Assembly (NCBI GenBank): GCA_036245525.1
Contig: BTPG01000005.1
Location: 177,868,577-177,932,576, forward strand
DNA length: 64,000 bases
Source of the DNA: Semisulcospira habei
Taxonomy: Eukaryota > Mollusca > Gastropoda > Semisulcospiridae
Direction of reading: 5' to 3'
Position numbers and translations under genes: made by a program. Position 1 is the stretch's first letter. Each line of letters starts with the position of its first letter. Under the pieces are notes generated by a model, which was given only the letters and a program-made list of their open reading frames with translations, did no database searches and was not told the DNA's origin. Shown here in pieces: positions 2,351 to 54,562 of this stretch.

Positions 2351-2443
2351 ATCATGGTCGATCCATCTCCTGCAACTGATACACAGTCGTTACGTGACAC
2401 ATCCAAAATGTGGGAAATGCGGCCGTTGGGTTAAATGGGTTAA
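2351..2443. mobile_element. Right half of an HP-B hairpin element
   Basis: Starts at the LTR edge with ATCATGGTCGATCCATCTCC and ends AAATGGGTTAA, the normal right end of HP-B. The left half would be left of the LTR element, outside the window. Confidence 0.6.
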
Positions 2444-2583
2444 CAGCGACTAGAAGAAACAAATACTGTGCCTTGACTGATACACGTCGTGACAAAGCAT
2501 TTTTTTACCCAAATCCTGTGGTCCAGAGACTACAGCTTAGCCCGTTCAGTGCTAGCCGATGCAGACTGTACTTCTGCAATCTT

Positions 2584-2700
2584 CGTTAGTTGGATCGACC
2601 ATGATAATTCAAGGGTAGTATCAGATTAGCTTGGCGCCGACAATTATCATGGCCGATCCATCTCCTGCATAGTCGTTAGATGACGCCTCCAACATTTGGG
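2584..2700. mobile_element. HP-B element with most of the right arm deleted
   Basis: The left arm (GATCGACCATGATAATTC ... TAGCTTGGCGCC) is intact, then the sequence jumps to AATTATCATGGCCGATCC, skipping about 30 bp of the right arm. Arm-internal deletion is typical for hairpins during replication. Confidence 0.6.
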
Positions 2701-2724
2701 AAATACTGTGACGTGCGTCTCACT

Positions 2725-3007
2725 GTTTTCCTTCCAGTCCGCCCTCAAAACTCACCTCTTTCAACAGTTCTAGCACTATAAAATCACCCGCCGTGAGATG
2801 GCCTTAGTTGCCTGCTCGGCGTTAAACCCAAATAACTAATTAACTATAAAATCACCACACTTCCCACCCCAACGTGAGTCATTATGTTGTCGAAAGCGTG
2901 CGCATGTGTGCGCGAGTTGTGCGTGCGCGAGTTGTGAGTGCGCGCTTAGAGTTATAATTATTTTTAAGATAAGCGCATTATAAGTACCGTAATTATTATT
3001 ATTATTT
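2725..3007 (+). mobile_element. 3' end of an L2-like LINE, split by a tiny retroposon
   Basis: It carries the last codons of the reverse transcriptase (QSALKTHLFQQF-type end), then the short 3' UTR seen at 56.1 kb and a (ATT)n tail. A 54-bp retroposon (2789-2842) interrupts the UTR. It has the same 3' sequence as the copies at 28.1, 45.9 and 56.2 kb. Confidence 0.75.
2789..2842 (+). mobile_element. Ultra-short retroposon G (54 bp) with 14-bp target duplication
   Basis: The insert contains GAGATGGCCTTAGTTGCCTG and CTCGGCGTTAAACCCAAATA, ending in a short TAACTAAT-like tail. It is bracketed by ACTATAAAATCACC at 2775-2788 and 2843-2856, both perfect. The same unit recurs at 9.1, 10.4, 15.75, 24.0 and 30.6 kb. 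Confidence 0.85.
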
Positions 3008-3029
3008 AGTTGATTCAACACCCAAAAAC

Positions 3030-3165
3030 CCTAGCTGTCCCAGGAACATGCAAACAAAGCGGTGTCAGCAAGAGGCATAGATCCTCATGAGCCCAGGCAA
3101 AGGCGAATTTATACTTCTTGCAGCTGGCTGGTGTTTATATTTCTCGGCACTGAACGGATGTATGT
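3030..3165 (-). mobile_element. HP-A element, right arm decayed
   Basis: The left arm AGAGGCATAGATCCTCATGA is canonical; the right arm survives only as AATTTATACTTCTTGC. The outer sequence (GGAACATG... and TTTCTCGGCACTGAACGG) matches other HP-A copies in reverse orientation. It ends 9 bp from exon 7 of the GPCR gene. Confidence 0.6.
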
Positions 3166-3173
3166 AAACTGAC

Positions 3174-3276
3174 CTGCAAGTGCCGCCCCTGTAGACAGAC
3201 GATACACAGCACCAGGATAGAAAACAGGGACAGGATGAAGTTGAACCGAACACAGTGGAACAGCGTCCACGAGCCC
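3174..3276 (-). CDS. Adhesion-GPCR exon 7: intracellular loop 1 and TM2
   Basis: A 103-bp exon, phase 2 to 0. The acceptor is TCTATTTCAG, the donor is CTTGCAG/GTCAGT. The leftover AG of exon 6 plus G makes Arg, then the peptide reads GSWTLFHCVRFNFILSLFSI and LVLCIVCLQGRHLQ. A short basic loop followed by N-x-x-(L/I)-S-L and a second hydrophobic helix is the TM1-loop-TM2 pattern of class B GPCRs. A hairpin element (HP-A) sits only a few bases past the donor. Exons for TM3 to TM7 were not recognised to the left and should lie beyond position 1 or be hidden among repeats. Confidence 0.74.
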
Positions 3277-3309
3277 CTGAAATAGACAAACATGTCGTGA
3301 CGTTTGAAT

Positions 3310-3690: not shown

Positions 3691-3780
3691 GGATCGAGAT
3701 GGGCAGATCGTTTTTTCAAGATAAATCCGTCTGCTGGAAACATTGTTGGCACAGATCCGCTGAACTGGTTTCCTCAAATA

Positions 3781-4439: not shown

Positions 4440-4641
4440 TCACCCGTTCTGTGCCGGCTGCTACAATCTTCGTGAATTCAAACGGCCCCCTGGACCCTTG
4501 ATGTCCCAGGTATATGGTTTCAAAGTGGTGTCAACAAGCGGCAAAGATCCTCATTAGCCCCCGCAAATGCGGGAGCTCATGAGGATCTATACCTCTGGCA
4601 GTTGGGTAGTATTCATTTTGTTCAGTCTCCGCACTGAACGG
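4440..4641 (-). mobile_element. HP-A element in GPCR intron 6
   Basis: Hairpin 4535-4597 with a 4-base apex (AAAT) and small mismatches. Outer parts match HP-A (TTTCAAAGTGGTGTCAACAA; CTCCGCACTGAACGG). TTAA ends are worn away. Confidence 0.65.
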
Positions 4642-4754
4642 CCAGTAATTTGGACCTTGTGTTCTCTTCATAAACTATGAACAAGAGTCAACGTGGATTT
4701 TCTCAACGGTGTTATGCGTGTACAGGTGCAGGAGATGTTGCAAGAAATGTATAC

Positions 4755-7851: not shown

Positions 7852-8065
7852 TTAACTCATTCAGCCCGACGCACGTATTTCCCATACTTTGGAGGCGTCA
7901 TCTAACCACTATACACCTGTTGCAGGAGATGGATCCACCATGATAATTCAAGGACAGTGCCAGATTAGCTTGGCGCCAACAGGCGCCAAGCTAATCTGGC
8001 ACTACCCTTGAATTATCACAGTCGACCCATCTCCTGCTGTAGTGCATCAGGGCTGAATGGGGTAA
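7852..8065. mobile_element. HP-B element, long near-perfect hairpin
   Basis: Left end GTTAACTCATTCAGCCCGAC, right end GGGCTGAATGGGGTAAT (TTAA mutated). Hairpin 7922-8037 with arms of about 55 bp and apex AACA. The arm pair reads AGATTAGC/GCTAATCT, unlike the AGAATAGC/GCTATTCT of other copies. Confidence 0.8.
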
Positions 8066-9331: not shown

Positions 9332-9527
9332 TTAACCCATTTCACCCCATTTGGAGGTGTCGCCTATCGACTATGTTCCAGTTGCAGGAGATGGATAGAC
9401 CGTGACAATTCAAGGGGAGTGCCAGATTTGCTTGGCGCCGGACGGCGCCAAGCAAATCTGGCACTCCCCTTGAATTGTCACGGTCGATCCATCTCCTGCT
9501 GTAGTGTGTTGGGACTAAAGGAGTTAA
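9332..9527. mobile_element. HP-B element with 114-bp hairpin
   Basis: TTAACCCATT at the left and AAAGGAGTTAA at the right. Hairpin 9385-9498 is almost perfect over ~55-bp arms. It carries its own matched arm changes: GATTTGC/GCAAATC and GGGGAGT/ACTCCCC. Confidence 0.85.
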
Positions 9528-10889: not shown

Positions 10890-11449
10890 TTAACCCTTTT
10901 AATTCCACGGGCGCATTTCCCACATTTTTGAGGTGTCACCTAACCGTCTGTAGGAGACAGATCGACGATGCTGATTCAAGGGCAGTACCATTTTAGCTTG
11001 GCGCCTGCCACCAATGCTAAAGGTGCGAGGTTCGATTACGGGTTCCGGCGTCGGATTTTTCTCCTCTAGTAAGTGTCACCGTTAATTCGGGCGGACCGTC
11101 GGGGGTTCTTTCTCCGGGTACTCCGGCTCTTCCTCCCCCTCCACTTTGGTATCAGTTTCAGCCCACTTAATCAAATTTCAAATACAAACGATTTTGAATT
11201 TCCAAAAACTACAGTAGCTCGCTTGAGCTTGCCCTTAGCACCACGTGAATGTTCTGTGTTTATGTACTGTGTGTGGGTGAATGCGCGTGATTCACGTGAG
11301 CGTGCTTGTTGGGTTCAGTTCGCGGCGGCGCTTTGAGCCGATTTTCAATTGGGATAAAGCGCCTATTTAATGCGCTTATTATTATTATTATTATTATCAT
11401 CATGGTCGATCCGTCTCCTGCTCTAGCGCGTCGGGGCTAAATGGGTTAA
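10890..11449. mobile_element. HP-B element whose hairpin apex is replaced by a tRNA-SINE
   Basis: The left half starts TTAACCCTTTTAATTCC and runs to TAGCTTGGCGCC. The sequence then continues as the SINE CTGCCACCAATGC. After the SINE tail the HP-B right part returns (ATCATGGTCGATCCGTCTCC ... AAATGGGTTAA). The join lies at GGCGCC/GCGCCTG, which both elements share. Confidence 0.75.
11003..11393 (+). mobile_element. tRNA-derived SINE S1, copy 1 (head truncated)
   Basis: Starts within the tRNA-like head at CTGCCACCAATGC, includes the B box GGTTCGATTAC, the body shared with 16704 and 48471, the end AAAGCGCCTATTTAATGCGC and an (ATT)n tail. The A box is missing. The 87-aa ORF inside it is not a gene. 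Confidence 0.75.
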
Positions 11450-12465: not shown

Positions 12466-12557
12466 TTAACCCTTTGGCTGTCGGTAGCGGTTACTGTCGC
12501 GATGGCTCCTGCAGAAATTATCGCGACAAAAACCACTACCGACATCCGAAGGGTTAA
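12466..12557. mobile_element. HP-C element, 92 bp
   Basis: TTAACCCTTTGGCTGTCGG at the left, CCGAAGGGTTAA at the right. Whole-element palindrome with GTCGCGATGG and ATTATCGCGAC near the apex; arms show a few mismatches. Confidence 0.72.
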
Positions 12558-13746: not shown

Positions 13747-13838
13747 TTAACCTTTGGACTGTCGGAAGCGCTTTTTGTCGCGATGATTCCGGATAGAATC
13801 ATGGCAATAAAAAGCGCTACCGTCAGCCAAAGGGTTAA
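13747..13838. mobile_element. HP-C element, 92 bp, beside exon 3
   Basis: TTAACCTTTGGACTGTCGG ... CAGCCAAAGGGTTAA. The arms carry GCGCTTTTTG/CAATAAAAAGCGC. Its edge is about 75 bp upstream of the exon 3 acceptor, so it could lie in the branch-point region. Confidence 0.72.
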
Positions 13839-14029: not shown

Positions 14030-14247
14030 TTAACCCTTTAGCTGACGGTAGCGATTTTTGTTGCAGTGATTCCTGCAGGAATAACAACACCCTGCAGGAA
14101 TAACAACACCTGACATCCTGCATGAATAACAACGCCCTGACATCCTGCAGGCATAACAACACCCTGACATCCTGCAAGAATAAAAACACCCTGACATCCT
14201 GCAGGAATAATTGCGACACAAACCAATACCGACGGCCAAAGAGTTAA
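14030..14247. mobile_element. HP-C element with a 27-bp minisatellite grown at the apex
   Basis: TTAACCCTTTAGCTGACGG at the left, GGCCAAAGAGTTAA at the right. The apex TCCTGCAGGAATAACAACAC is expanded into about five to six units of 27 bp (14071-14211), making the element 218 bp instead of 92. Confidence 0.75.
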
Positions 14248-15207: not shown

Positions 15208-15333
15208 TTAACCCCTTGTCTGCTACTGACGATACCGCTCGGCAGAAAAGACGCGTGACTACGTCATGACCTATCTACGTGACTACGCGTCTTTTCTGCC
15301 GAACGATATCGTCAGTAACAGAAAAGGGGTTAA
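15208..15333. mobile_element. HP-E element, TTAA-bounded hairpin
   Basis: TTAACCCCTTGTCTGCTACT ... GAAAAGGGGTTAA. Arms contain CGGCAGAAAAGACGCGTGAC and GACTACGCGTCTTTTCTGCC. A left-half copy (15149-15211, ACTGCCACTGACGATAAACC) abuts it and shares its TTAA. Confidence 0.72.
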
Positions 15334-19312: not shown

Positions 19313-19529
19313 TTAACTCTTTTCATCCTGATACAGCCATTCCTCAACATAATTGTGACTATCATAGTTCAAGTGTGGTGCCAGAATAGCTTGGCGCCTG
19401 AGACGCCAAGCTATTCTGGCACCACCCTTGAACTAAAACGGTTGATTTGTCGTCTCCTATCTGTAATGTAGCCTTCATAGGACAATAAGCAATTGATTTA
19501 AAAATCAGCCTCTGAATGTAATGGGTTAA
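19313..19529. mobile_element. HP-B element, second subfamily
   Basis: TTAACTCTTTTCATCCTGAT ... GAATGTAATGGGTTAA. Hairpin with GTGTGGTGCCAGAATAGCTT and its partner AAGCTATTCTGGCACCACCC. The outer parts (AATAAGCAA, ATCAGCCTC) define a subfamily shared with 22515 and 26636. Confidence 0.82.
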
Positions 19530-19689: not shown

Positions 19690-19880
19690 CCTTTCAAAAT
19701 CATAAACGTAGCTGATCAACCTGCAAAGGCATAGATTCTCATGGGTCCCCGCAGTCGCGGGGCCTCATGAGACACTCAGTATGCCTTTTGCAGCAGAGTC
19801 ACGTAATGTTCACAGAAAGCATCGCAAACACGACTGCATATAGCGTTTGTGCTGCATTGTTCGGAAATGCGTTGTACAAG
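19690..19880. mobile_element. HP-A subfamily element, copy with one damaged arm
   Basis: Hairpin 19721-19792. Left arm GGCATAGATTCTCATGGGTC. The right arm has CCTCATGAGACACTCAGTAT, so it no longer pairs fully. Its flanks repeat those of 20030-20225 (AAAATCATAAACGTAGCTG; AAAGCATCGCAAACACGAC). Confidence 0.68.
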
Positions 19881-20029: not shown

Positions 20030-20225
20030 GTGTGAAATCTGTAGCCACAAAATCATAGACGCAGCTGTTCTACCTGCAAAAGGCATAGATTCTCATGGGT
20101 CCCCGTAGTCGCGGGGACCCATGAGAATCTACGCCTCTTGCAGCTGAATGGTGTTCACAGAATGCATCGCAAATACGACTGCCTTTGTGTTTGTGCTGTG
20201 TTGTTTGGAAATGGCGGGGAGGCAG
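20030..20225. mobile_element. HP-A subfamily element with perfect hairpin
   Basis: Hairpin 20074-20143: GATTCTCATGGGTCCCCG pairs with CGGGGACCCATGAGAATC. Other HP-A copies have GATCCTCATGAGCCCCCG with CGGGGGCTCATGAGGATC, so three changes are matched in both arms. Confidence 0.8.
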
Positions 20226-21950: not shown

Positions 21951-22106
21951 TTTAGCGCCGAACTGGCAGTTGATGGGCGGTAAAATTCTGTTAACTTCTT
22001 AACCACAAACGAAACTTGATTTTCAAATTACTGTTGGTTATTCTCAGCTACTAAGGCAGGCTTCGTCCGACTTCAATAAATTTCAGACAAATGTTGGACA
22101 AAGCCG

Positions 22107-22327
22107 TAACCCTTCACTGACACTGATCGTACAGTGTACGTCTGAAATCTGTGTAAATTCCACGATAAAGAGCGCCAGCCGTCCCTTGAACAATGCATAC
22201 AAAGTGGTTTCAGCAAGCGGCATAGATCTTCATGAGCCCCCACAATTGCTGGGGCTCATGAAGATCTAATCTATACCTCTTGCAGTAGTGTGGTGTCCAT
22301 TTTTAATCTTGCCAGTAAAGGGGTTAA
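22107..22327 (-). mobile_element. HP-A element, TTAA at right end
   Basis: Left end GTAACCCTTCACTGACACTG, right end CAGTAAAGGGGTTAA. Hairpin 22212-22283 with GATCTTCATGAGCCCC and GGGGCTCATGAAGATC, a matched change against the usual CCTC/GAGG. The right arm has a short internal duplication (GATCTAATCTAT). Confidence 0.78.
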
Positions 22328-23287: not shown

Positions 23288-23358
23288 AGACATAGATTCA
23301 CAGAATTACATAAGCCCGTGCACCTGCAGGGGCCTACGAGAATCTCTATGCCTCTTGC
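23288..23358. mobile_element. Decayed HP-A hairpin
   Basis: GACATAGATTCACAGAATTA ... CGAGAATCTCTATGCCTCTT. Arms pair only partly. Confidence 0.5.
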
Positions 23359-24374: not shown

Positions 24375-24589
24375 TTAAACTCTTAACTGCCGAGAAAAAC
24401 TGAACACTACCCAACTACAAGAGGTATAGATCCTCATGAGCCCCCGCTGTAGCGGGGGCTCATGAGGATCTATGCCTCTTGCTTGGAACCATTTTGTATC
24501 CACGTCCCTTTAACGCGACTGGGGATCGTCAACATTGAACATGTGATTTCAAAAACACAAACTGCGTCAGCTGGCGGTGAACAGGTTAA
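24375..24589 (+). mobile_element. HP-A element, reference-quality copy (215 bp)
   Basis: TTAA at both ends (TTAAACTCTTAACTGCCGAG; GGCGGTGAACAGGTTAA). Perfect hairpin 24418-24481 with GATCCTCATGAGCCCCCGC and its complement, apex TGTA. Between hairpin and right end is a ~105-bp non-palindromic segment (TTTGTATCCACG ... CAAAAACACAAACTGCG), which gives the element an orientation. Confidence 0.85.
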
Positions 24590-24759: not shown

Positions 24760-24930
24760 ATGATCCAACAGCAAGAAACATAGATCCTCATGAGACCCCG
24801 CAGTTGCGGCGGCTGATGAGGATCTGTGCCTCCTGACATTAATTTGTATCTATGTTCCTTGGACGGCTGAGGCTCTTTGGCGTTGAATTAACGGATTTCA
24901 AAAACACTGCGGCCATTTGCAGTGTGGAGG
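24760..24930 (+). mobile_element. HP-A element 120 bp upstream (3' side) of GPCR exon 1
   Basis: Hairpin 24771-24835 with a few unpaired changes (GAGACCCCGC versus GCGGCGGCTG). Right segment TTTGTATCTATGTTCCTTGG as in 24375. Confidence 0.72.
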
Positions 24931-25250: not shown

Positions 25251-25373
25251 CTGGCGAGAAACGACAGCAATAACAATTACAGTAAAACCTCTTTTGAGTG
25301 ACGACCCTTCTGAGAGATCACCTGTAATTAAAGACTATCGCTATCGCCACCTAAATGATGGTCTTTAACCCTC

Positions 25374-25577
25374 TTAACCGCAAGGCCCCATGCCCCAAAT
25401 TTGAAGCTGTCACCTGACAACTATGTACCGGTTGCCGGAGATGAATGGACCGTGATAATTCAAGGGTAGTGCCAGAATAGCTTGGCGCCTGAAGGCGCCA
25501 AGCTAATCTGGGACTGCCCTTGAATCATCACAGTCCATCCATCTCCTGCGGTAGGGTCTCGGGTTTAAATGGGTTAA
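25374..25577. mobile_element. HP-B element with mosaic arms, next to GPCR exon 1
   Basis: TTAACCGCAAGGCCCCATGC ... TTTAAATGGGTTAA. Left arm has AGAATAGC (one subfamily), right arm has GCTAATCT (another), so the two arms mismatch exactly at a position that is matched in all intact copies. Confidence 0.8.
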
Positions 25578-26258: not shown

Positions 26259-26478
26259 GTAACCCTGTCGGGGCAAGGCGAACGCTACCCACCTGCAAGG
26301 GACATAAATCCTCATGAGCCCCCGCAGTCGCTGGTGGTCATGAGGATTTATGTCTCGTGTTAGTCCTGTGTTCTTTGTCCTTTTGGTCCCTTTTCGTTTG
26401 TGTTCTTCACGCGAATGTCGGTTAGTGTGGAGTGGTTTCAGACGCGAAATCCGCGTCCACGGGCAGTCAAAGGGTTAA
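26259..26478 (+). mobile_element. HP-A element, ACATAAAT subfamily
   Basis: Hairpin 26293-26360: GACATAAATCCTCATGAGCC pairs with CATGAGGATTTATGTC, a matched pair of changes relative to GCATAGATC/GATCTATGC. The right end is GGCAGTCAAAGGGTTAA. A left-arm fragment of another HP-A (26479-26510, ACACAGATCCTCATGAG) follows directly. Confidence 0.78.
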
Positions 26479-26635: not shown

Positions 26636-26828
26636 TTAAACTTTTTCATCCTGATACACTATTGCTTGAAATAAAATTGACCGTAATGGTTCAAAGGTGG
26701 TGTCAGAATAGCTTGTCGCCTGAAGCGCCAAGCTATTCTGACACCACCCTCAATTAACATGGTTGATCTGTAGCCTGCGTAGGAAAAGAAGCTGTTAACA
26801 AAATCAGCCTCAAGATGCAATGGGTTAA
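26636..26828. mobile_element. HP-B element, second subfamily
   Basis: TTAAACTTTTTCATCCTGAT ... GATGCAATGGGTTAA. Arms GGTGGTGTCAGAATAGCTTG and CAAGCTATTCTGACACCACC share a matched GTGTC/GACAC change. Confidence 0.8.
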
Positions 26829-26893: not shown

Positions 26894-26964
26894 TGCAAGC
26901 GAAATAGATCCTCATGAGTCTCTACAGCTGCGGATGCAGATGGTAATCTATAAATACCTGTTGC
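26894..26964. mobile_element. Decayed HP-A hairpin
   Basis: GAAATAGATCCTCATGAGTC ... GGTAATCTATAAATACCTGT; pairing largely lost. Confidence 0.5.
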
Positions 26965-29920: not shown

Positions 29921-30136
29921 TTAACTCATTGTGCCCGAGGTACGAAATACCCACATTTTGGAGTTATCCTCTGTGGCCCGCATTACATTTCAGGAGACAG
30001 ATCGACCATGATAGTTCACAGGTGGTGGCAGAATAGTTTGGCGCCTATAGGCGCCAAGCTATTCTGCCACCACCATTGAATTATGATGGTCGAGCCATAT
30101 CTTGTTGTGGGGTGTCGCGGGCTGAATGACATAAGT
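29921..30136. mobile_element. HP-B element
   Basis: TTAACTCATTGTGCCCGAGG at the left; right end decayed (GGGCTGAATGACATAAG). The arms share a private matched change: GGTGGTGGCAGAATA with TATTCTGCCACCACC. Confidence 0.8.
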
Positions 30137-30697: not shown

Positions 30698-30911
30698 TTA
30701 ACTCATTCTACCCCAACACCGAAATCCTTAAATTTTGCCCCTGTCCTCTGAAGACTGCATTGCAGTGCAGGACACAGGTCGACCATGATAGTTTAAGGGT
30801 GATGCCAGAATAGCTTGGCGCCCATAGGCGCCAAGCTATTCTGGCATCACCCTGGGACTGTCATGGTCGATCCTTATTTTCCTGTGGTGTGTCTGGGGTA
30901 GAATGAGTTAA
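30698..30911. mobile_element. HP-B element (214 bp), both TTAA ends intact
   Basis: TTAACTCATTCTACCCCAAC ... GGGTAGAATGAGTTAA. Hairpin GGGTGATGCCAGAATAGCTT with AAGCTATTCTGGCATCACCC: a private matched GATGCC/GGCATC change. Confidence 0.85.
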
Positions 30912-31940: not shown

Positions 31941-32203
<263 letters not shown>

Positions 32204-32322
32204 AGTTATTGGTCGGAGGGGTTCGCTACACGGACCTTTGTAGGCCTGAGGGAGGTCAAAGGAATCATTGACCTCCCGAAGGCCTACAAAGGTCCGTGTA
32301 GCGAACCCCTCCGACCAATAAC
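32204..32322. repeat. ~119-bp palindrome right of the (AT)n tract
   Basis: Arms GTTATTGGTCGGAGGGGTTC, GCTACACGGACCTTTGTAGG and complements, apex near AAAGGAATCA. Unrelated in sequence to the left palindrome. Confidence 0.85.
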
Positions 32323-33480
32323 GTATTTGTTTTCCTTCCTCCGTTTATTGTTTAGAAAAAATCCGGTTTATGAAGACGGCCGCTTCTGTGGTGGATAGGC
32401 GACACCTTTGAATATACATGTTCTGCCGGGGATTCCCAGTCTTTACGAGACAGAGTGTGACGTAGCATGATTCCGTGTGAAGCGCAAGTTTCGCGAGTAA
32501 AATGCTACTAATCTTGGCTTGTGTACAGAATGATTCAAGCTGCAATGTCTACAAAAGGTCGTTAAAGTAATACAGTGACAGTGCTTCTTGACTGCTGTGC
32601 GATTCAGAAAAATTAAGAACTTTTTGATGAAGCGATCGGTATTTGACCACTGTCCGATGTGACAGCTTGTGCAAGTTAGCATGGTGCTTCGTGCTCAGTT
32701 TTAGATTCAAGATGACTGAAGTGGATGCTTCGAGTGTGCAGCAGATTGTCGTTGTTATATCCTAAAGTGTCATGTGTGTTGGGATATCTGGAAAAAGGAA
32801 TACCAAAAGAACGCTCGTTGTTAACAGCGGAACTAGTGCTGAGATGGATTTTAAGGCAAGATTTTATTTTACAGCGTTGACGTGATGTCAGATAGTCTTT
32901 GAAGATGTTTTTCTTCAGATAGTCCCGCATTGAGTGACGTGAAGAGAGAACTTTGGCAATAGCGTGCTTTGTGTATAGTGTTGCTGGGTGTGTATTTTCG
33001 TTTTAGTTCTTGAATTTGTTGCTCTGTGCTTTGGTGAAATTGTGGCGTGTTGGTGGTTGAGCAGACGACAGTGTGTTGCCGGTTTGCAAGGATTGCTGTC
33101 TCCGATTGGTTAAAAAAAAACACAAAAAACTCCTTAGCTATTTTTGTTCCGTGGTTTCCCGAACTTTGAAAATGTTTCGGTGCATGGCGATGAGCGGATG
33201 GATTTGGCGAAGGCTTTTGCTGTTTGCGCTGTGTAATTAGTGGTGAAATATTGTTTAAGTTGGCTCCTCACGTCGTAAAAAAATAAGGCAGATGTGTGTA
33301 TTACGTCAAATAGGACTACTTTGGTGAGTTTTTTTCTGCTATTTTGTCGAACCGAGTTGCTGTCAAGACTCAAAAACGAGGTCCTAACGCGTCATCGAGT
33401 GGGCTATAAAACGTCCCATTTTTCGCTACAGTGGTTTTTATATCACGTTCACATGGTACACTTTGCGCTAAAGTGACTGG
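32323..33480. other. Stretch without recognised features
   Basis: No repeat family or domain seen. Minus-strand ORFs of 66-84 codons overlap in several frames and show no family features. Confidence 0.4.
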
Positions 33481-33655: not shown

Positions 33656-33730
33656 GTCACTCCTTCCAAGGCGGACGTTATCCATCTGCAAGAGACATAA
33701 ATCCGCATGAGCCCCCGCAGTCGCGGGGGT

Positions 33731-34451
33731 CATCATCATCATCATCATCAGTCCCTTGCCCGAACTGGGCGTTGGGGGGACTGAAAGGCAGCAGCAACAG
33801 ACAGTGCTCTCCACCGAGTTCTATTTTGGGCGGTGGCAAGCAAGTCTGACATCTCGAGTGCGGTCCATTCTTTTATGTTTGCGACCCAACTCTTTCTCTG
33901 ACGACCTCGCCGACGACTTCCTTCGAGAGTGCCTTGGAGGATAGTCTTGGACAAGGTGTTGTGTCGGGTCACGTGGCCAAACCAAGCAAGCTTGCGCCGT
34001 TTCACGGTTGCCAGAAGGGGTTCATGTGGGCCCACCAGGGAAGTGACGATGCTCCGTACATATTCCTTGGTCTTGTGCTCGCGGTACGAGATGTGGAGCA
34101 ACTTCCTCAGGCACTTGTTCTCAAAGGCCTGGATTTTCTTTTCTAAGTCTGCAAGCAGTGTCCAAGTCTCACAGCCGTAGAGTAGAATAGACACTATGAG
34201 GGACTTGTAAAGCCTGTACTTGATGGTGAAGCTGATGGAGTTACTTCGCCATATCCTGTCCAGCCTGGCCATTGCGGATGTTGCTGTACCTATCCCGATA
34301 CGGATCTCTGCTATGCAACTACCGTCTTTGGACAGGGTGGCTCCCAAGTACTTGAAGCTATTGACCTCTTCTAGCTTTTGGCCATTCATGTGAATGTTGC
34401 TGCTGCTGTCGCTTGTGGTGTTGATCATCACTTTGCTTTTATCCGTACTGA
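33731..34451 (-). mobile_element. RTE-like LINE family 2, 5'-truncated, in a hairpin apex
   Basis: Perfect 10-bp duplication TCGCGGGGGT (33721-33730 and 34452-34461). The 3' end is a short (TGA)n tail next to CAGTTCGGGCAAGGGACTGA, typical of RTE-like elements that end in short tandem repeats and not poly(A). The target is the loop of an HP-A hairpin. Confidence 0.88.
33748..34431 (-). CDS. Reverse transcriptase C-terminal part, LINE family 2
   Basis: 227 codons without a break. It contains [20 protein letters not shown] (end of the palm/thumb), [60 protein letters not shown] and [14 protein letters not shown], the C-terminal signature of RTE-type reverse transcriptases of many aquatic invertebrates. 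The catalytic YADD block is upstream of the truncation and lost. It cannot act alone. It belongs to a different family from the LINE at 20281 (no finger motif). Confidence 0.85.
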
Positions 34452-34602: not shown

Positions 34603-34792
34603 TTAAATACATTGAGCCGTATGGTAAAAATGCCAATATTTGGGAGTTGTAGACTACATGCCATTTTGGAGATCGACCATGGTAATTCAAAGGTCGTGCC
34701 AGAATAGCTTGGCGCCTAGAGGCGCCAAGCTATTCTGGCACAACCTTTGGTCGATCCATGTGCCGGTGTAGTGTCAGGCCTGAACAGGTTAA
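34603..34792. mobile_element. HP-B element in a three-element chain
   Basis: Left TTAAATACATTGAGCC, right GGCCTGAACAGGTTAA. Hairpin GGTCGTGCCAGAATAGCTTG with CAAGCTATTCTGGCACAACC. It shares its TTAA with HP-A on the left and HP-C on the right. Confidence 0.8.
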
Positions 34793-34867
34793 CCATTTAG
34801 CTGTCGGTAGCGCTTTTCCTCCTGATGATTCTTGCCACAAAAAGCGCTACGGAAGACAAGGGGTTAA
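34789..34867. mobile_element. HP-C element at the end of the chain
   Basis: TTAACCATTTAGCTGTCGG ... GACAAGGGGTTAA, 79 bp with arms TAGCGCTTTT / AAAAAGCGCTA and a shortened apex. Confidence 0.75.
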
Positions 34868-38318: not shown

Positions 38319-38745
38319 CTATGGAACCGACTGATCACGATCAGCGCGTGACAACAGATCCGCGAACACATTCTGTGTACCTGGAAGTGGTTCGAGAATG
38401 AATCTAAACTCTTGTAAGGACAAGGACCAACGCATGATGCGAGAATTCTTAAAGCGACTTGTATGCAAGTACGTCAGCGGTCTGTGGTCAGTCTGGAGAA
38501 TGAAATCGACCCCCCAAAGAAATTTGGAAAATTTCGAAATGGCCCAAACAATAGCTAAACACTCCCTTTCGATTGTACTGTAGCGGGTCTCTCTGTCGAG
38601 CAACTTTCTGCTCGCAAATGACACGGGGTGAAGAGTTCCCCCTAACTCCTGAAGCAGCACAGCACCCAAGCCAGTAGAACTAGCATCTGTGCGTAAAATG
38701 AAAGGTTGATCAAGCCTAGGCAACTGAAGAACAGGCGCAGAGGAA
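38319..38745 (-). pseudogene. RNase H end of gag-pol, shifted frame
   Basis: Continues pol after the frame break. It contains FILRTDASSTGLGAVLLQEL (first catalytic Asp region), YSTIERECLAIVWAISKF and FILQTDHRPLTYL, then DLLSRADRDQSVP and a stop at 38319. All core RNase H motifs are visible. It is separated from the main frame by a one-base shift at an A8 run (minus T8) near 38743-38750. Confidence 0.88.
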
Positions 38746-41700
38746 AAAAAATGTGTCTGATCCTAATCAACGCTTCCTCACAAGCAGGTGTCCATGCAAA
38801 CGTGCGTGCTTTCGTCTCCTTTGTGAGATCAGTAATGGGAGCCGTGATGGTGGCGAATGCCGGGACATAGCGTCTATAAAAGCTCAATAGCTCCAACAAC
38901 GAACGGACTTGCTTTCTGGTGGTTGGGGTTGGGATAGCCAAAATTTTCTCGATCTTTTTCTTTTCTGGACGCAACATCCCTTCTCCCACCACATGTCCAA
39001 GAAACTCAAGACTCCTGTAACCAGACGAGATCTTAACCGGACTGGCAGTCAAGTTGTAGTGGAGCAACTTGGTTAGGACATCTCTAACGTGCACCAGATG
39101 ATCTTGAAAAGTAGTACTATGGATCAAAATATCATCGAAGAAATTCATTGAGTACGCCTCAGGAAGTTCAAGCATTCGCATCATACGAGCAAACACTGCT
39201 GGGGCAGAAACCAGACCAAAAGGCATCCTGATCCATTGATACAAACCAACGTGCGTTGCGAACGCCGTCTTGTGACGATCCACCGGGTTGACAACAATCT
39301 GCCAGTAACCTTTAGAAAGATCAATACGTGTGAAGAACGTACTGTTCGCTAGCCTTGTGAACAACTCGTCCACATTGGGAATGGGTTCAGCATCGAAAAC
39401 AGTTATCTTGTTGAGAGCTCTATAGTCAATGCAAAACCGACAAGCACCATCCTTTTTCTGAACCAGGACAACGGGTGATGAATACGCAGATTTAGATTTC
39501 TCTATGACACCTAGGTCAAGCATGGTTTGAATCTCTCGTACAACTATCTGCTTAGAAGAAAAAGGTAGATCATAAGCCCGTCGACGAACTGGAACATCAG
39601 TCGTAAGAGTGACGTCAAGGAAAAGATTTCCGTTGAACGCACCGGGTCTCGAGGTCAACACCGTAGGAAAATCTGCAAATACTGCATACAGTGACTGACC
39701 ATCAGAATCAGATAAATCAATGTTAAAATCGATATCGGAAATGTCTTTGTCATTGATAGACGACAACATGACAGGAATAGTGGGGAGAACACCAACTTCA
39801 TCATCATCTTGGACAACACCAATAGCCACTGATTTGACAGTATGCCAGGCTGAAACGTCTACATGAGGAACATCACACTGAGGCTCCACAACCTCGACAT
39901 CTGGAAGCAAAAAAGGAGAAATGGAAGACCAGTCGACTAAAACACCAGTTGACAATTGTGTAGTAGACTCCTCAACACCACTAACAGCAGCATCAACACG
40001 ACGAAGATAACGTTTGAGCATGTTGGCATGGAAAATCTTCGGCTTGCCTTTCACAAGAATCCTATAGTCAGGATGAAGACATTCCTGCACAAAATAAGGA
40101 CCTGACCATGTCATAAGAAGCTTGTTAGAGTCAGTGGGAAGAAGAACGAGAACCTCATCGTTAACAGAAAAAGTCCGTGCCTTCGCACGACGGTCAAAGT
40201 ACGTCTTGTTCTTGACAGACGTATCTGCAGAGTTTTGCGAAGCAATTTCACAACTTTCAGAAATAATATTCTTCAAGTCGAAGAGATAAGCGTACAATGG
40301 CTTTGCTGATGTATCACTAGAATTGTGATCTTCGGTCCAGAAATCAGCAATGAGAGAAATGGGACCTCTTGGTTTGCGGCCGAACATCAGTTCGAAAGGA
40401 CTGAAACCTGTACTTTCTGACGGCAATTCTCTACATGCGAAAAGCAATGCAGGAAGATACCGATGCCAAGCGGTTGGTTGAGAATGAACAACCTTCCGAA
40501 GCATAGACTTCAAAGTACCATGAAACCTTTCAACAGTACCATTTGCTTGAGGATGGTAGGGAGAAGTACGTATGGCGCGAGTACCACACAAAGCATGAAA
40601 CTGTTTCATCAAATCGGAGTTAAACTGAGAACCTTGATCCGACAGAATTTCCTTGGGAAAGCCTAACCTTGAAAAAATACTCATCAAAGCTTCGGCAACT
40701 GCAACAGAAGAAATATCCTTCATAGGAACAGCCTCCGGATACCTAGTAGCTAAGTCAATCAAAGTCAGAATATATCTATGACCTTCAACAGAGGGAGGAG
40801 ACAAAGGCCCAACGAGATCAATAGCGACCCTCTCGAACGGAGTCGAGATAAGAGGCATAGTCGCCAAAGGAACAGGGGAAACTCTCCCTTTCGAAATAGT
40901 TTTCTGGCAAATGTCGCAAGTGTGAACATAAGTACTCACATCAGCAGAAACACCAGGCCAAAAGAATTGGGACAAAATCCGAGTCAGAGTTCTACGAACT
41001 CCACAATGACCAGCCAAAAGTTGATCATGCGCAGCAGTCATGACTGAAGCACGAAGTTTCTCGGGAACAACAACCTGATGCAAAATATCCTTTGATTTCC
41101 GATACCTCCTGTACAAAATATCATCTTGAAAATAGAAAGAATAAGTAGCAGAACCAACAATCTTTTCTTCACCTGAGGCAGCTAAATTGAAACAACCTTG
41201 CAGAGTAGCATCACCTTTCTGCAACTGAATGAGTTCAGCACGAGTGACCCTCAAATCATCGCACACAGTGACAAGAGGTTTGTGCGGGAGACCTTGTTCC
41301 CTAGCCTGAGCACGAGTAGTGACAGCAGCAACAGGGATCACATCAGCAGCAGCAGCAACTTTGGTATCTTGGGCCTGCGGGACAACCAAACCTGGAATAT
41401 TACCCACAATCAAGTCAGCAACTGGATCCTCAAGAACACAACAAACCAACTCTCCAGCAAAATATGGACAAGAAACAACAACTTTAGCCTGCTGGTAAAT
41501 GTTGATCTCTCCACCAAAAGTTTTACAACGGACAGTACCTGGTACATACTGGTCATCAGAAACCAAACGTTTTCGAACACCACAAATGGTAGCACCTGTG
41601 TCTCGCAGAACTGAGCAAGCAGTAGAATTGACAGAACCAACTTCTAAATGCAAGTGACCAGCTGACTGATCAAAAATAGAGCAAACAACTTCCGAGTCTA

Positions 41701-43078
41701 CAGGGACAACTGCACAACCTGAGCTCGAGTTACTCTTATCATCTGAAGCTATGGTTTTTTTCACAACAAAGGGACAAGTTTTTCGAGTATGACCACCAAT
41801 GTTGCAAACAGAGCAAGGGTTTGGACTGTTGCGAAGAGGACACTGCCTGGGACCATGACCTTTACCATCACAAAGAGGGCAATTATCAAAATTGGTGTAA
41901 AACGAACCACCTCCACGTCCACGTTTCAAAGATCCTCGAGTTTGATCAAAACGACCTTCGACCTTTTGGTTCGAAACCGAGGGCGTTTGGTCGGTCTGTC
42001 GAAAACCACCACGATTTCTCCAATAGCCGCGACCTCGATAGTTGGAGTAACCACCGCGAGAATCTGCAGAGCCAGCAACAGCTTGTGACTCTTCAGCTAA
42101 ATCAACTGATCCTACTGAGCCGAAAACCGTAGCAGCCGATCTGCGTGCCAAGTTCTTTCCGGGACGAGCAAGACGATAACTTTCAGCGGTTTTAACCATG
42201 TCATCTAATGTGACAAGTCCACGCTCGCGAATGAAAGTAGCAAGATCCTGTGACGCACATTCTAGAAACTGCTCACCTAACACAAGATTCATAATTCCCT
42301 GCATGTCTCTAGGAACACCGGACAAAGCTATCCATCGATCAAACAATCTGTTTAGCTCAATACCAAAAGTTTGGAAAGGTTCGTTCGAGTCTGGTCGGAT
42401 TTCACGGAACTTCTTGCGAAAACCTTCTGCAGTACACTGGAACTTCTTAAGCAAATTGTCCTTCAATGTCTGATAATCTACAGGACCATGAGCAGCAAGA
42501 CTGTGGTACAAGTTCAATGCGTTACCTTCTAACAAAGCGGAAAGAAAGGTAACCCATTTGCTTTGATCCCAGCCAAGGGCTGTAGCATGAGTCTCAAAAC
42601 GAAAAAGGTATGAATCGATATCATCTTGTCTTTCTTTGAAAACAGGCAACTTGGGGTAAACAGGTCTAGCACCAAAAGAATTACTATCCCTACCTCTGTT
42701 TCCATGACCATCCTCTTCTTCCTCAAGTCTACGTGCAGAATGTAACTCAAGTTCCATTTGTTTTGTTTTCTCTCTTTCCAGCTCTAACTGAACATCGGCT
42801 TGTTTATTCGCTAATGCTAACTGAACATCGGCTTGTTTATTTGCGAGCTCAACTTCTGCTTGTCGTTTAGCTAGCTCAACTTCTGCTTGTCGTTTAGCTA
42901 GCTCAACTTCTGCTTCTTTTTCCAATTTCTTTTCATCCCTCAATCTTTGTCTCTCAAGACGATCAAAACAATCCTGTACATATTTTCCACGTTCCTTATC
43001 AGGGATACCCAAAGTTGTAGCTTGAGCAATAAAAGATTGGAACAACTTATCATAATCGTCAGACATGGCTAAGTGCAA
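38746..43078 (-). CDS. gag-pol: gag-pol polyprotein of the Gmr1-like element
   Basis: About 1445 codons in one frame before the shift. Residue map: repetitive coiled coil (~40-120, units like VELAKRQAE), capsid-like region (~140-300), Arg/Gly-rich stretch, two CCHC zinc knuckles (CPLCDGKGHGPRQC at ~400-413, CSVCNIGGHTRKTC at ~422-435), protease LRDTGATICG (~491-500), integrase zinc-binding HDQLLAGHCGVRR ... CDIC (~684-724), integrase core (IDLVGP, LSDQGSQFNSD, PQANGTVERFHG; ~753-854), GPY/F-type module WSGPYFVQE ... HANMLKRY (~991-1024), then RT (~1150-1440) with SPVVLVQKKDGACRFCIDYR, MPFGLVSAPAVF and the catalytic FFDDILIHS (~1313). Gag and pol share a frame. ATG at 43078 or 43066. The product would form particles and copy and insert the element. 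Only one frame break was seen. Confidence 0.93.
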
Positions 43079-43969
43079 TGTAGATCAACAAACAAAAGAA
43101 AACTTACTAAAAAAAAATCAAAACGTCTAAACAGGAAATCAATAAAGTACTAAAGTGTCAACAAAATGGCAAAATGCAATCAATCACAATAAATTGTTCT
43201 ATCAACCTTATGAAACAATGAAGTTTCTCCAAACGTAAATTTACAGGACAAGGCACAGTAAAAAATGAAGTTACTAAGTGAGAAGTTTTAATCCAATTAT
43301 GTTCAAAGAAAAATACAATAAAATTTACGTCAAACACCGCAAACACTATAATCGCTAATACTAAATACCAAATGTACGGCGAAAGGGAAATAAACCCAAT
43401 CAAATTATCAAAGTCTCAAACAAATGAACCAAGGGAAACAATCTATTGACAACTAAACCAAACAAAAAAAAAAACAACAATTTAACAAAAATAACCAATT
43501 ATGACCACATACATAAATACAAAAAAAACCTAGATCAAAATCAATACAAATCAAACTTAAAAATAAATTAAATCAAATGAGGCTGAAATCCCAACACGAG
43601 AATCTACTTAAAATAAGGGCAAAGAGAACATACACCCAACCACACGCATAAAAGGATAGGACCCTACAACAGCAAAGAACTAGTAAATACAATTCCCTAA
43701 CAGAAGAATAGAGCTGAAGAAGAGAATAGGAACCCCCAAGACAGAAAAAGAGCTAAATCCTTAGTGCCCAGAAACTGTACACAGATACAGCCGTTAAACT
43801 GGAGACGGCAAATATCACACAAAACACCACATCCCAGTCATACACTATAACAAAATTTCAAAAGAATAAGCCCACTAGTCTACCGATATAAATCTATAAT
43901 AACTAGCCCACACTAAATATGAATATGTATGACCTAATGTTAACACAGAGAAAGTCTAGGGTCACCAAA
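43079..43969 (-). other. 5' leader of the Gmr1-like element, with primer-binding site
   Basis: About 890 nt, A-rich on the + strand, no conserved ORF. Next to the 5' LTR (2 nt apart) the minus strand reads TGGTGACCCTAGACTTTC (43950-43967), a primer-binding site complementary to a tRNA ending GGGTCACCA. The long leader may hold packaging or translation signals; none can be shown. Confidence 0.72.
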
Positions 43970-45213: not shown

Positions 45214-45390
45214 TTAACCCCTTCACAGCCGAGAAACTCTCAATAAGATCCATCCACAAAACACACAGATCCTCATAAGGCCCGCGGTTCCGGGGACTCA
45301 TGAGGATTTTGGCTCTTTTTGGCTCATATATTCTTTACTTTTAACAAAGGCGTCGCCCAAAGCCAAAATTGCACTCAATCAGATTAGCTC
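45214..45390 (+). mobile_element. HP-A element, imperfect hairpin
   Basis: TTAACCCCTTCACAGCCGAG left end intact; hairpin 45263-45316 (CACAGATCCTCATAAGGCCC / CGGGGACTCATGAGGATTTT). The right end is not clear. Confidence 0.68.
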
Positions 45391-49187: not shown

Positions 49188-49265
49188 TGGCGCCAAGCTA
49201 TTCTGGGACCACCCTTGAACTATCATGTTCGATATCTGTTTTGTTGTAATGTGTCAGGGCCGATT
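49188..49265. mobile_element. Right half of an HP-B element
   Basis: GGCGCCAAGCTATTCTGGGA, CCACCCTTGAACTATCATG, GTGTCAGGGCCGATTCTG. Left arm missing. Confidence 0.6.
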
Positions 49266-49374: not shown

Positions 49375-49560
49375 TCGTCACTGCTTGGCGACGCAGACTG
49401 TGTTTCTGAAATCTTTGTCAGTTAACTGCCAACAAGCCCCAGTCAACCAAGGAACATGGATACGAAGCGGTGTCAGCAAGAGGCATAGATCCTCATGAGC
49501 CCCCGCAATTGCGGGGGCTCATGAAGATCTATGCCTCTTGCAGTGGGATCGTGATCGGAG
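49375..49560 (-). mobile_element. HP-A element with near-perfect hairpin
   Basis: Hairpin 49475-49542 (GATCCTCATGAGCCCCCGC / GCGGGGGCTCATGAAGATC, apex AATT). The left segment is in reverse orientation: CAAGGAACATGGATACGAAG. Confidence 0.8.
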
Positions 49561-49569
49561 CTACCGTTC

Positions 49570-49710
49570 AGGCGACGCATCGACCATGCCAGTTGATGGG
49601 TGGTCGGTGTCAGGGTAGTTCGGTGCCTCCAGGCGCCACGCTATTCTGGCACAACCTTGACTACTGCTATCGTCGATCCAATTAGTTTGTTGCTGTGGTT
49701 CATGGCTAAC
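49570..49710. mobile_element. Decayed HP-B element
   Basis: GCATCGACCATGCCAGTTGA, GGTGCCTCCAGGCGCCACGC, TATTCTGGCACAACCTTGAC. Arms mismatch at several points. Confidence 0.6.
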
Positions 49711-49804
49711 TGATACTTCAATACACCAAGTTATTTCAGCACCACACTTTGTTTTCATGGTCTGTCCCTCTTTCTGTGAAGTGTATCAGGGACGAACCAT
49801 AAGG

Positions 49805-51666: not shown

Positions 51667-51892
51667 TTCACCCCTTCGCTGCCGAGAAAACTCCATACAG
51701 TCCATCTGCAAGAGACATAGATCTTCATGAGCCCCCGCAGTAGCGGGGGCTCATGAGGATCTATGCCTCTTGCTGAAACCACTTTTTATCCATGTTCCTG
51801 GGACGACTAGGGCTTTTGGCGTGGAATTAATACAGATTAAAAAAAAAAACAACCCACGATCTGCGTTTGCTGATGTCCAGTGAAGGGGATAA
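51667..51892 (+). mobile_element. HP-A element, full length (226 bp)
   Basis: TTCACCCCTTCGCTGCCGAG ... TCCAGTGAAGGGGATAAA (TTAA mutated at both ends). Hairpin 51707-51774 near perfect, with one U-G-like change (CTTC against GAGG). Confidence 0.82.
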
Positions 51893-52054
51893 ACCAAATG
51901 CGAAGACTGCTATGGCATAAGAATGATATGAAATTCACAATATCGCGATTTCGTTATCATAGCCTTTGCTATTCTTCGTCTATATTATGAAACGTGCGCT
52001 CAATTTGTCCGTGACCGTCTCACGTCTTTTCGTTCCCAGTGTCCTTCATATTGC

Positions 52055-52227
52055 GGGGAGGGGGGGGGCGGATGGGTGGGGGGGGCAGGGGTGGGCGGGG
52101 GGGGGGGGGCACGAGATAGCGCACGTGGCAGCACTGATCCCCGCTGGCTCGGCTCCAACCCTAACTTGGACTTCTCCAAGAGAGGTGAGGTGGGGTTTGA
52201 AAGGGTGTTGGGGGGGGGGGGAGGGGG
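52055..52227. repeat. G-rich stretch
   Basis: Several runs of 6-9 G between 52055-52110 and at 52210-52227. The ORFs on both strands are poly-Gly or poly-Pro artefacts. Confidence 0.8.
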
Positions 52228-52708
52228 GGTTGTGGCGCACGAGTTATTTGAGTTGCAAATTTGCAAGGTTAGCTACTGTCTGAGGAATATCGAGATAAAA
52301 TGATGTTCAGATCAGTCATACTTGTGCCACCCCCTCATGCCACCCCTCCACCTTTAAGATCAAGCACTGTCCTGTAAGCGCTTAGGCCAGATGAAGATAT
52401 GTGTACATTCTGACATCCCTACCGTAATAGACGACAGTTGATGTTGAGATTGCTTGCGTGCAAGAATTTCTTTTGCAGCCTTTGAGAGACGTAACTCGAA
52501 AGAATGACAGCTCGTTGTCTGAGCCAGTGACATGGGATGATCTTGCATTACTCACCTCTATATGTGCACGAGTCTCTGTCACAGCTTTTGAGAGACATAA
52601 CCCGAAAGAATGACAGCTAGCCGCCGTAGTCCAATACACCGGAAAGTGTTGTGTCAAATATCTACACTAGAACTGCCCTCACAGCCACAGGCGTGGAATG
52701 ATCGTTGC

Positions 52709-52800
52709 TTAACCCTTTGCGTGTCGATAGCGGTTTTTGTCGCGATGATTTCTATACAAATCATCGCGACAAAAACAGCTACCGACACGCAAAGGGTTAA
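52709..52800. mobile_element. HP-C element, 92 bp, best palindrome
   Basis: TTAACCCTTTGCGTGTCGAT ... CCGACACGCAAAGGGTTAA. TTAA at both ends. GCGTGTCG/CGACACGC is a matched change against GGCTGTCGG of other copies. Confidence 0.85.
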
Positions 52801-53880
52801 TCGATCACCTCTATAACAAGGCTATTAGGCATTGTCTTCTTTCAGTCTATTTACACTTTTTCTCATTGGCCTGGCTCTATTTGATTTTTTTTCCCTGGCC
52901 GTCCGTTCTCAGGGAAACGGGAGTTCCCTTGTCACATATTACCAAGGTAATATTTGATAAGTAGACTCCCTTATTAAATGATTCGATGACAACGTTACTC
53001 GTTGAGCAAAGCTTTCTCCCCCAAATAAATCCTTGGCCAATCACATTTCTCGGTACAAACATACCATAATCTTCATTCAGTCAAACCTCCAAACAAACAT
53101 ATGCCAACAAATAAATAATTCAAGGGGCTACGCAACAAAAAGAACTATATGTAGGTGTTCTGTGATACCGCTGGTACCAGTTTCACACAAAACATAACTG
53201 GATGATTGGATAAGTTAGATAATATCAACGACAGGAAAATTCAACTGAAGCGAAGGCCCTATCACCTACTGACAGTATTCGAAACGGTGAAGAAATAAAA
53301 AGCTGTATAAATAAAAACTGAGAGGGTTACGCAACCAAATAACTATATACACGCGTTGTGTTCAGCCTATATTACCAATTTTATACAAAATAATGACTGA
53401 AAATGTGTTATATTAAAAAATACCTGAGAGAGAAATTCCAGACGAATGCAGTTTGCGCGAGGTTGTTGACATAGTCGGAAGTATGGAGATTTACGTCCCC
53501 TGAATCTCTAAGTGACGCGTCAAGTTTGATGTCCTTTGGCAGTCACCTTTTTGGTCTGGATTGATGTCCTTTTGTATTACGAGTTAGGTGTTGCCGGTGG
53601 TTCTTGCCGCCTCTTGGGTCCCGTCTACCTTCGACATTGACCCCCTGATCGGAACCTCAAACCGCCAAAAACCATTGGCAAAACCTAACTCGCAATTACA
53701 GCTAATACTGTGATCGTGCTCACATGTGGAAAAAAGAAGCTGTATTTTTTTTTCTCCGACGGCCTCTTTATTTTTGCTGCGTGATGCTCATTACCCGGAT
53801 GACTAAGCGAAAACACAATCCCTAAGGCCACACTTAGGTTTTACTGTACTCCAACTAATAAAACGGCGTAACCCATGCAA
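52801..53880. other. No gene seen
   Basis: AT-rich. 53530-53570 holds a short part of module J (TTGGCAGTCACCTTTTTGGT). The two stretches 53120-53150 and 53325-53350 share GGCTACGCAA/GGTTACGCAACCAA, a hint of an old duplication of ~200 bp. Confidence 0.4.
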
Positions 53881-53899
53881 TCATGAAATCCAGACCAAA

Positions 53900-54005
53900 A
53901 GGTCTTCTTCAGCTGTGTTATAACTGTATTTTCTAAGCGTGATTCTTTCTTCAATTGTGTTGTAACTGTCTTTTCTAAGCCTGTTTCTTTCTTCGCTGGG
54001 TTCTG
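53900..54005. repeat. Partial module J, tandemly doubled
   Basis: TTTCTAAGCGTGATTCTTTC and TTTCTAAGCCTGTTTCTTTC repeat ~50 bp apart, as at 9.78 and 28.73 kb. Confidence 0.6.
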
Positions 54006-54504
54006 CCATGCAGTCGTGGCCTCATTAACAGGATGGGATGAACCATAACCCACAAAGTCCATTCTATATAAGAGCTGTCCTCGCTGTCAAGAGTCTCTAC
54101 CTTTTGTTTTTGACCTGATTCTGATTTTGAAATATCTCCTTTTGAAAAGGTCTTGCAGATCTGCCAATGCGCCACGGTGAATTCTACCCGTCATTGGTTT
54201 TTCAAACGTCATTTGTCATGACGTATGTTTTGTTTTTACGTAATGTTATATGATATGATATGAGTTTCACTTTCACTTCAAGACTTAAGAAAATGGTGAC
54301 AAAATTAGAATTTTACGGTACGATTTTAGTCTCGCTATATTCTGTGTTAAATCAGGTTGACTTTACCTAGCCACATGATGTACTATATACACTTGCATGC
54401 TCTTCTGAAAGCGCGTCGATGTGTGTCTGTCTGTGTGTGTATGTGTGCGTGTGCGTGCCTCTTGCGCGTGCAAGTGCGTGCGTGCGCAACTCCGAACATC
54501 ACCA

Positions 54505-54562
54505 AGATGCATAGATCCTCATGCGCCCTTCCCGGCGCATGAGGATCTGTGCATCTTGTAGG
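54505..54562. mobile_element. Bare HP-A hairpin with private matched changes
   Basis: AAGATGCATAGATCCTCATG, CGCC / GGCG, CATGAGGATCTGTGCATCTT. Relative to the family, GATGC/GCATC and ATGCGCC/GGCGCAT are changed in both arms. Outer HP-A sequence is absent. Confidence 0.78.

Follow-up and report, generated by a model that had tools for sequence, protein, structure and literature searches.

The window analysed here is a stretch of 64,000 nt on C5, a chromosome-size contig of the 1.98-Gb assembly (507 contigs) of the gastropod Semisulcospira habei. It is populated by three families of short hairpin-bearing elements, HP-A, HP-B and HP-C (the last being HP-D of this analysis, with the sequence TTAACCCTTTGGCTGTCGG..), whose hairpin arms vary from copy to copy, often with both arms changed in a matching way. 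A sequence-only reading of the window had counted about 15, 15 and 5 copies of these families, and our count of matches at E ≤ 0.001, fragments included, came to 16, 16 and 5, respectively. Ten of the eleven arm variants that it had named were recovered as hairpins by a scan with a minimum of 24 bases. For HP-B, the pair AGAATAGC/GCTATTCT was found in hairpins at 19383, 26705, 30807 and 34701, and the pairs AGATTAGC, GATTTGC, GTGGCAG and GATGCC at 7962, 9425, 30025 and 30801, respectively. For HP-A, GATCCTC was located at 4546, 24429, 24783 and 54514, GATTCTC at 20088, GATCTTC at 22225, ACATAAAT at 26302 and GATGC at 54506. The eleventh variant, ATGCGCC/GGCGCAT at 54521–54540, falls below the scan minimum and is visible in the sequence by eye. 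Many copies were partial, and several carried deletions inside the hairpin. The individual features are given below with their strand, a point standing for no assigned strand.

7852–8065 (+): HP-B, subfamily B1 (AGATTAGC), full length, TTAACTCATTCAGCCC ends, arms 7922–8037
9332–9527 (+): HP-B copy W9332 (GATTTGC/GCAAATC), hairpin 9384–9499 carrying five matched changes plus one unmatched, the two ends differing
19316–19529 (+): HP-B, AGAATAGC type, hairpin 19365–19435
25365–25577 (+): HP-B, hairpin 25437–25546
26643–26828 (+): HP-B, AGAATAGC type, hairpin 26696–26748
28914–29125 (-): HP-B, TTAA to TTAA
29921–30129 (+): HP-B (GTGGCAG/CTGCCAC), hairpin 30002–30093, matched change common to L031_3987
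30698–30911 (+): HP-B (GATGCC/GGCATC), 39 listed genome relatives at 95–98%, change also in three other sampled copies
34607–34791 (+): HP-B, hairpin 34688–34749, ends disagree, few arm mismatches
2348–2722 (-): two HP-B fragments, 2348–2442 and 2587–2722
10891–11449 (+): HP-B, hairpin split by an insert, pieces 10891–11008 and 11396–11449
49188–49264 (+): HP-B right half
49567–49711 (+): old HP-B, arms heavily mismatched
22090–22327 (-): HP-A element A1 (GATCTTC/GAAGATC), hairpin 22223–22268
3068–3119 (.): HP-A match
4535–4598 (-): HP-A hairpin (GATCCTC/GAGGATC)
19725–19790 (+): HP-A hairpin
20074–20143 (+): HP-A hairpin (GATTCTC/GAGAATC)
23295–23358 (-): HP-A match
24418–24482 (-): HP-A hairpin (GATCCTC/GAGGATC)
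24772–24835 (-): HP-A hairpin (GATCCTC/GAGGATC)
26296–26358 (-): HP-A hairpin (ACATAAAT/ATTTATGT), different flank family
26895–26951 (.): HP-A match
27028–27091 (-): HP-A hairpin
33688–33735 (.): HP-A match
45258–45315 (-): HP-A match
49476–49541 (+): HP-A hairpin, one-sided change CCTC/GAAG
51709–51773 (-): HP-A hairpin, one-sided change
54503–54558 (-): HP-A hairpin within CT/GT-rich sequence, belonging to a further flank family
12466–12557 (+): HP-C/D element, 92 bp, palindrome nearly end to end, TTAACCCTTT ends
13748–13837 (.): HP-C/D element
14031–14112 (.): HP-C/D match
34790–34866 (.): HP-C/D match
52709–52800 (+): HP-C/D element, 92 bp, palindrome nearly end to end
15208–15333 (+): another TTAA-bounded palindromic element (TTAACCCCTTGTCTG), 126 bp

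Copies in the window were compared with those from three sets of other loci: evenly spaced stretches totalling 200 kb (L031–L050), targets picked by genome search (L002–L030) and copies picked for their likeness to W9332 (L051–L064). One further stretch, L001, shares sequence with the window; it entered the subfamily tallies of 75 older copies, the look-up of shared variants and the HP-B match tally, and was dropped from the HP-A hairpin set, the 85-copy distance test, the local-consensus count and the tree. HP-B is spread well beyond the window: 17 of its 55 matches lie in the window and the other 38 in the evenly spaced 200 kb. A mechanical scan of the same sequences returned 64 hairpins, among them HP-A, HP-B and HP-C/D as well as other palindromes bounded by TTAA.

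In the youngest subfamily, a complete HP-B element measures 214 bp, carries the ends TTAACTCATTCAGCCC/GGGCTGAATGGGTTAA, and consists of about 45 bp of unpaired sequence on the left followed by two arms of 57–58 bp around a short loop. In HP-A the ends are of the TTAACCCCTT type, and each arm is about 28–30 bp long. TTAA was found on both boundaries of these elements. Across 264 kb, 21 TTAA-bounded stretches had 20-base ends agreeing at 15 bases or more, as opposed to 4, 3 and 0 in block-shuffled controls; their inverted terminal repeats start with CCY, and TTAACYC was present on 18 of the 21 left ends. The inverted repeat spans most of the element length, as in palindromic miniature inverted-repeat transposable elements (MITEs), and elements of 80–92 bp are palindromic nearly end to end. 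One 80-bp TTAA element, a near-complete palindrome, was seen at L031 6344–6423, L046 4040–4119 and L050 1173–1252, in at least two forms differing at several pairs.

TTAA is the target site of the piggyBac superfamily, and CCY tips mark that superfamily. The piggyBac-type transposase domain PF13843 gave 116 scored genome matches above the Pfam cut-off among 1058 candidates, and many of these have open frames of 474–687 amino acids without an internal stop, which makes recent transposase activity in this genome likely. A motif scan of 363,540 bases gave a single short match (L021), in a frame full of stops. Because of the TTAA boundaries, the CCY tips and the abundance of transposase matches in the genome, we judge the elements to be putative piggyBac-like, TTAA-type, non-autonomous MITEs with a long internal inverted repeat.

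The HP-A stem recurs across flank families. Main-type flanks stood on both sides of 20 of the 78 hairpins, and a second, third and fourth flank type on both sides of 5, 2 and 2, respectively; 28 had one recognised flank or a variant of the main type, and the flanks of the remaining 21 were unlike any other sampled. The shared stem of about 26 bp (CAAGAGGCATAGATYCTCATGRGCCC) was met in families with unlike flanks, for example at L017_527, L048_2485, L043_9482 and window 54503–54558.

The commonest matched arm variants are founder subfamily differences. Among the 75 older HP-B copies, the AGAATAG and AGATTAG arm types numbered 32 and 27, and the three commonest matched differences, at pairs 95/162, 105/152 and 114/143, divide these copies into near halves. 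The variants singled out at 30.8 and 30.0 kb likewise recurred, GATGCC in three other sampled copies and GTGGCAG in L031_3987, and the 39 other scored genome matches listed for the 30.8 kb copy were 95–98% identical to it. An origin of matched changes in founder subfamilies had been named beforehand as an outcome that would speak against arm copying, as had a rise of arm mismatch with divergence, which was also observed: the further a copy stood from its closest sampled relative, the more its arms mismatched (Spearman 0.75, 85 HP-B copies), the mean mismatch going from 0.06 at distances below 0.05 to 0.26 at 0.2–0.3. Distant copies (flank distance 0.4–0.6) showed 0.08 matched and 0.20 one-sided differences per pair.

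The decay of young copies was followed in the 30 best genome-wide matches to window 7852–8065, that copy among them; the subfamily had 5418 first-look candidates genome-wide. In this set 1666 pairs were unchanged, 73 had changed on one side and 1 was matched, the rate of private change being 1.15% per site in the arms and 1.0% in the flanks. One further matched change was found in a near relative, L010_610. Since 73 of 74 changed pairs are one-sided, the idea that arms are kept matched in every copy fails for young copies, and ongoing arm conversion in every copy was rejected.

Matched changes were all the same in excess once founder types had been set aside. The main HP-B set excluded both L051–L064 and the search-selected targets, and used 53 of 55 hairpins, two having been dropped for fewer than 25 readable pairs. 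Its 1942 pairs held 203 one-sided changes, 25 matched doubles and 9 unmatched doubles, where independence of the arms predicts 6.5 matched and 7.5 unmatched. With 76 of 78 hairpins used, HP-A gave 295 one-sided changes, 49 matched and 20 unmatched doubles in 1977 pairs, against expectations of 14.8 and 16.4. Matched doubles were thus 3–4 times commoner than independent arms predict, and their share was too high at P = 0.001 for HP-B and P = 5e-5 for HP-A. Unmatched doubles form a built-in control, exposed to the same uncertainties, and were near expectation in both families. A count against local consensus sequences, which are uncertain for old copies, included L051–L064 and found 398 one-sided, 52 matched and 17 unmatched changes in 4754 pairs. 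The 29 search-selected young copies showed 42 one-sided changes, 3 matched (0.5 expected) and no unmatched doubles.

A few copies combined diverged flanks or ends with nearly perfect arms, most clearly W9332. Its 39 other scored genome matches, from 5856 first-look candidates, were 84–90% identical, and none of those listed exceeded 90%. Compared over 58 hairpin pairs with the consensus of 14 of these relatives, W9332 differed by five matched changes, including one at the loop, and by a single one-sided change, with unmatched doubles absent, while 9 of 63 flank positions (14%) had changed, as against 4–11 of 62–63 in the relatives. A different local consensus gave 14 of 72 flank positions changed, with one one-sided and four matched changes in 56 pairs, and the ends of the element disagree (TTAACCCATTTCACCCC versus TTAACTCCTTTAGTCCC). 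Independent decay would leave at most one one-sided change in 56 pairs with P = 5e-4 at 10% divergence and P = 4e-7 at 19%. A single tract copied from the opposite arm explains W9332; a young copy of an otherwise memberless lineage would also do so. Candidates of the same kind are L039 8926–9137 (ends mismatched at 7 of 12 positions, arm core at 1 of 40, two matched changes) and L008 502–573 (35-bp arms that pair without a mismatch, matched changes at two pairs, flanks not resembling those of other copies). L024_2543 had ends mismatched at 4 of 12 positions and arms at 0 of 40, with no matched change. The old copy at window 49567–49711 is a counter-case to near-perfect arms, with 21 one-sided changes in 55 pairs. 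In 23 copies, mismatch amounted to 22% of end sites and 9% of arm sites, fixed subfamily differences between the ends adding to the former.

The history of pairing was reconstructed on a FastTree phylogeny of 83 HP-B copies, L051–L064 included, built on about 214 columns. On internal branches, 21 pair losses and 12 regains were counted, as opposed to 51 and 5 under simulated neutral change. Terminal branches lost pairs at the neutral rate (278 versus 265 under the null) and carried 30 matched doubles against a null of 4.2. The tree suggests that spreading elements retain the palindrome and that copies decay afterwards; we give this modest weight, because the data are short and include similarity-picked copies. 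One possible reason for pairing in source elements would be a palindrome bound by the transposase.

Taken together, we lean somewhat towards founder subfamilies combined with occasional template-switch correction between the arms of piggyBac-like MITEs. Subfamilies stem from founders whose arms already matched, as seen for the commonest variants, so that many of the differences seen between the arms of different copies were inherited as pairs; after insertion, copies decay one side at a time with arms and flanks changing at the same rate, as seen in the youngest HP-B subfamily. Occasionally, one arm would then template the other, through fold-back priming, or by switching template at a replication fork or repair gap, and mismatches would be erased or made into matched pairs, leaving an excess of matched doubles and a few near-perfect arms in diverged flanks. 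Elements still spreading may also have kept their arms paired, perhaps with the palindrome as a transposase binding site. The data support occasional arm-to-arm correction without proving it, and the claim rests on the HP-B doubles test, from whose main set similarity-picked and search-selected copies were excluded. The earlier proposal that one arm is copied from the other is partly supported, through the matched excess and the few copies with near-perfect arms, and is not supported as a general rule. By a rough hand estimate, which takes the 18.5 surplus HP-B matched changes as corrections going either way, the resolution of a mismatch runs several times faster than mutation at a site; on that basis the youngest set should hold about one matched change, and one was observed.

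Several results weigh against such correction. If every distinct change enters the count a single time, HP-B retains 19 matched and 9 unmatched doubles (P = 0.016) and HP-A 26 and 20 (P = 0.13, no longer significant); part of the matched excess is therefore shared descent, and unsampled founder lineages may have supplied some of the matched changes of old copies. The sole matched change of the youngest set, against 0.10 expected, could arise by chance with P = 0.10. Two of the three matched changes in the young search-selected copies sit at a pair that often carries a C.A mismatch, from which a single extra change is enough. The 14 relatives of W9332 gave 9 matched changes where 0.4 were expected, a biased figure as they were picked for similarity to W9332, and in L039 8926–9137, 4 of the 53 pairs of the longer arm are changed on one side. 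End and arm mismatch in the 23 copies were not correlated (Spearman -0.14, P = 0.53), and end decay is therefore a poor clock. On terminal branches of the tree, unmatched doubles were also raised (10 versus about 5), which makes the tree test less clean than the two doubles tests. The footprint of template switching, in which matched doubles exceed independence and unmatched doubles do not, was observed in the doubles tests, more weakly under single counting, and with unmatched doubles above the null in the tree.

If founder subfamilies and neutral decay were the whole explanation, all matched changes would have pre-existed and copies such as W9332 would be young offspring of rare or extinct sources. 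The one-sided decay of the youngest subfamily, the rise of mismatch with distance, the sharing of GATGCC, GTGGCAG, AGAATAG and AGATTAG among related copies and the weakness of the single-count excess all fit this account, which we nonetheless hold to be rather unlikely: the flanks of W9332 equal or exceed those of its relatives in divergence while its arms do not, none of its 39 other scored genome matches exceeds 90%, terminal branches carry many more matched doubles than the null, and how founders alter both arms together stays unexplained. Selection for pairing in source elements, with the hairpin needed for spread as a DNA site for transposase or a host factor or as RNA, would account for the few broken pairs and frequent repairs on internal branches, for distant copies differing less in arms than in flanks (0.21 versus 0.44) and for the HP-A stem being found in several flank families; palindromes are bound by the dimeric piggyBac transposase, according to PMC11707139. 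It gives no account of matched changes gained after insertion, arms of 40–57 bp exceed the need of a 19-bp site, and the tree evidence comes from about 214 columns. An RNA role finds little echo in the window, where none of 4227 Rfam families reached its gathering score, or in the oriented HP-B copies, where G.T mismatches showed no surplus over A.C (121 versus 206, the latter including A.C pairs fixed in one subfamily); the HP-A G.U count is uninformative because HP-A orientation is arbitrary. Selected pairing as the main explanation thus appears doubtful to us. Finally, the excess could be an artefact of chance, alignment or copy choice, given that some copies were picked by search or similarity and that the local consensus of old copies is uncertain; we regard this as very improbable, since unmatched doubles, with the same exposure to error, fit expectation (9 versus 7.5 and 20 versus 16.4) and the HP-B test drew on copies that were not similarity-picked.

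With the piggyBac superfamily the elements share the TTAA target, the CCY-type tips and abundant transposase matches in the same genome. PALTTAA elements are palindromic TTAA elements. The sequence-only reading had called a long central hairpin foreign to the piggyBac plan, a statement to be softened: piggyBac ends hold 19-bp palindromes bound by the transposase, as stated in PMC11707139, compared with arms of about 26–58 bp here, and a repeat component shared by PALTTAA2 and PiggyBac is recorded in C. elegans and C. briggsae (PMC1431705). The Caenorhabditis elements are likewise TTAA-type and non-coding and form several families with common domains; unlike them, the elements described here have a central hairpin, about 45 bp unpaired on one side in HP-B, and a stem present in several flank families. 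Template-switch mutations in hairpins (PMC8794818) resemble W9332 in that one event gives multi-base matched stem changes; they concern ribosomal RNA and microRNA genes, whereas our hairpins are decaying transposon copies, and the same paper terms the strongest evidence for the maintenance of short stems circumstantial. Imperfect repeats are also reported to be homogenised by template switching between arms in quasipalindromes and inverted repeats of E. coli and yeast (PMC7202029, PMC8604942), although these systems differ in being microbial or in coding genes. A literature look-up by title and start of abstract found no report of arm correction in MITEs.

Template switching has been proposed as the way in which hairpins stay paired under single-base mutation, yet selection confounds the matter in RNA genes; transposon hairpins of varied age, if our explanation is true, would allow the correction rate to be measured without selection. 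Tentatively, and with some reservation, the genome might be viewed as a natural, largely unselected mutation-accumulation experiment with hundreds of thousands of hairpins (a number extrapolated from the 38 HP-B matches in 200 kb) in which template switching is countable against point mutation, and the HP-A stem as a module passing between unrelated families. A caution also follows for repeat copies in general: matched changes between them do not by themselves prove a function as RNA, the most frequent ones in this genome being founder differences.

Half-hairpins were read at eight places, and insertion aimed at the hairpin centre was rejected there; several are internal deletions, and window 10891–11449 instead carries an insert. 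The repeat inside this HP-B hairpin, at 11010–11395, has TTAATTCGGGCGGACCGTCGGGGG, a tRNA-like stretch and a (TTA)n-like tail, recurs near 16810 and 48568, and looks by eye like a short interspersed nuclear element (SINE).

Among the long reading frames of the window, LINE-like (long interspersed nuclear element) and Gypsy-like ones were recognised by reading the translations, with no family search made; one open frame of 1480 amino acids at 38642–43084 (-) reads by eye, again with no family search, like a Gypsy-type polyprotein. The near-perfect inverted repeat at 32200–32327 had no match in the 200 kb of other stretches; with a second near-perfect one at 31942–32068 it flanks a long (TA)n run, the arms measuring 63 and 60 nt with 95% complementarity.

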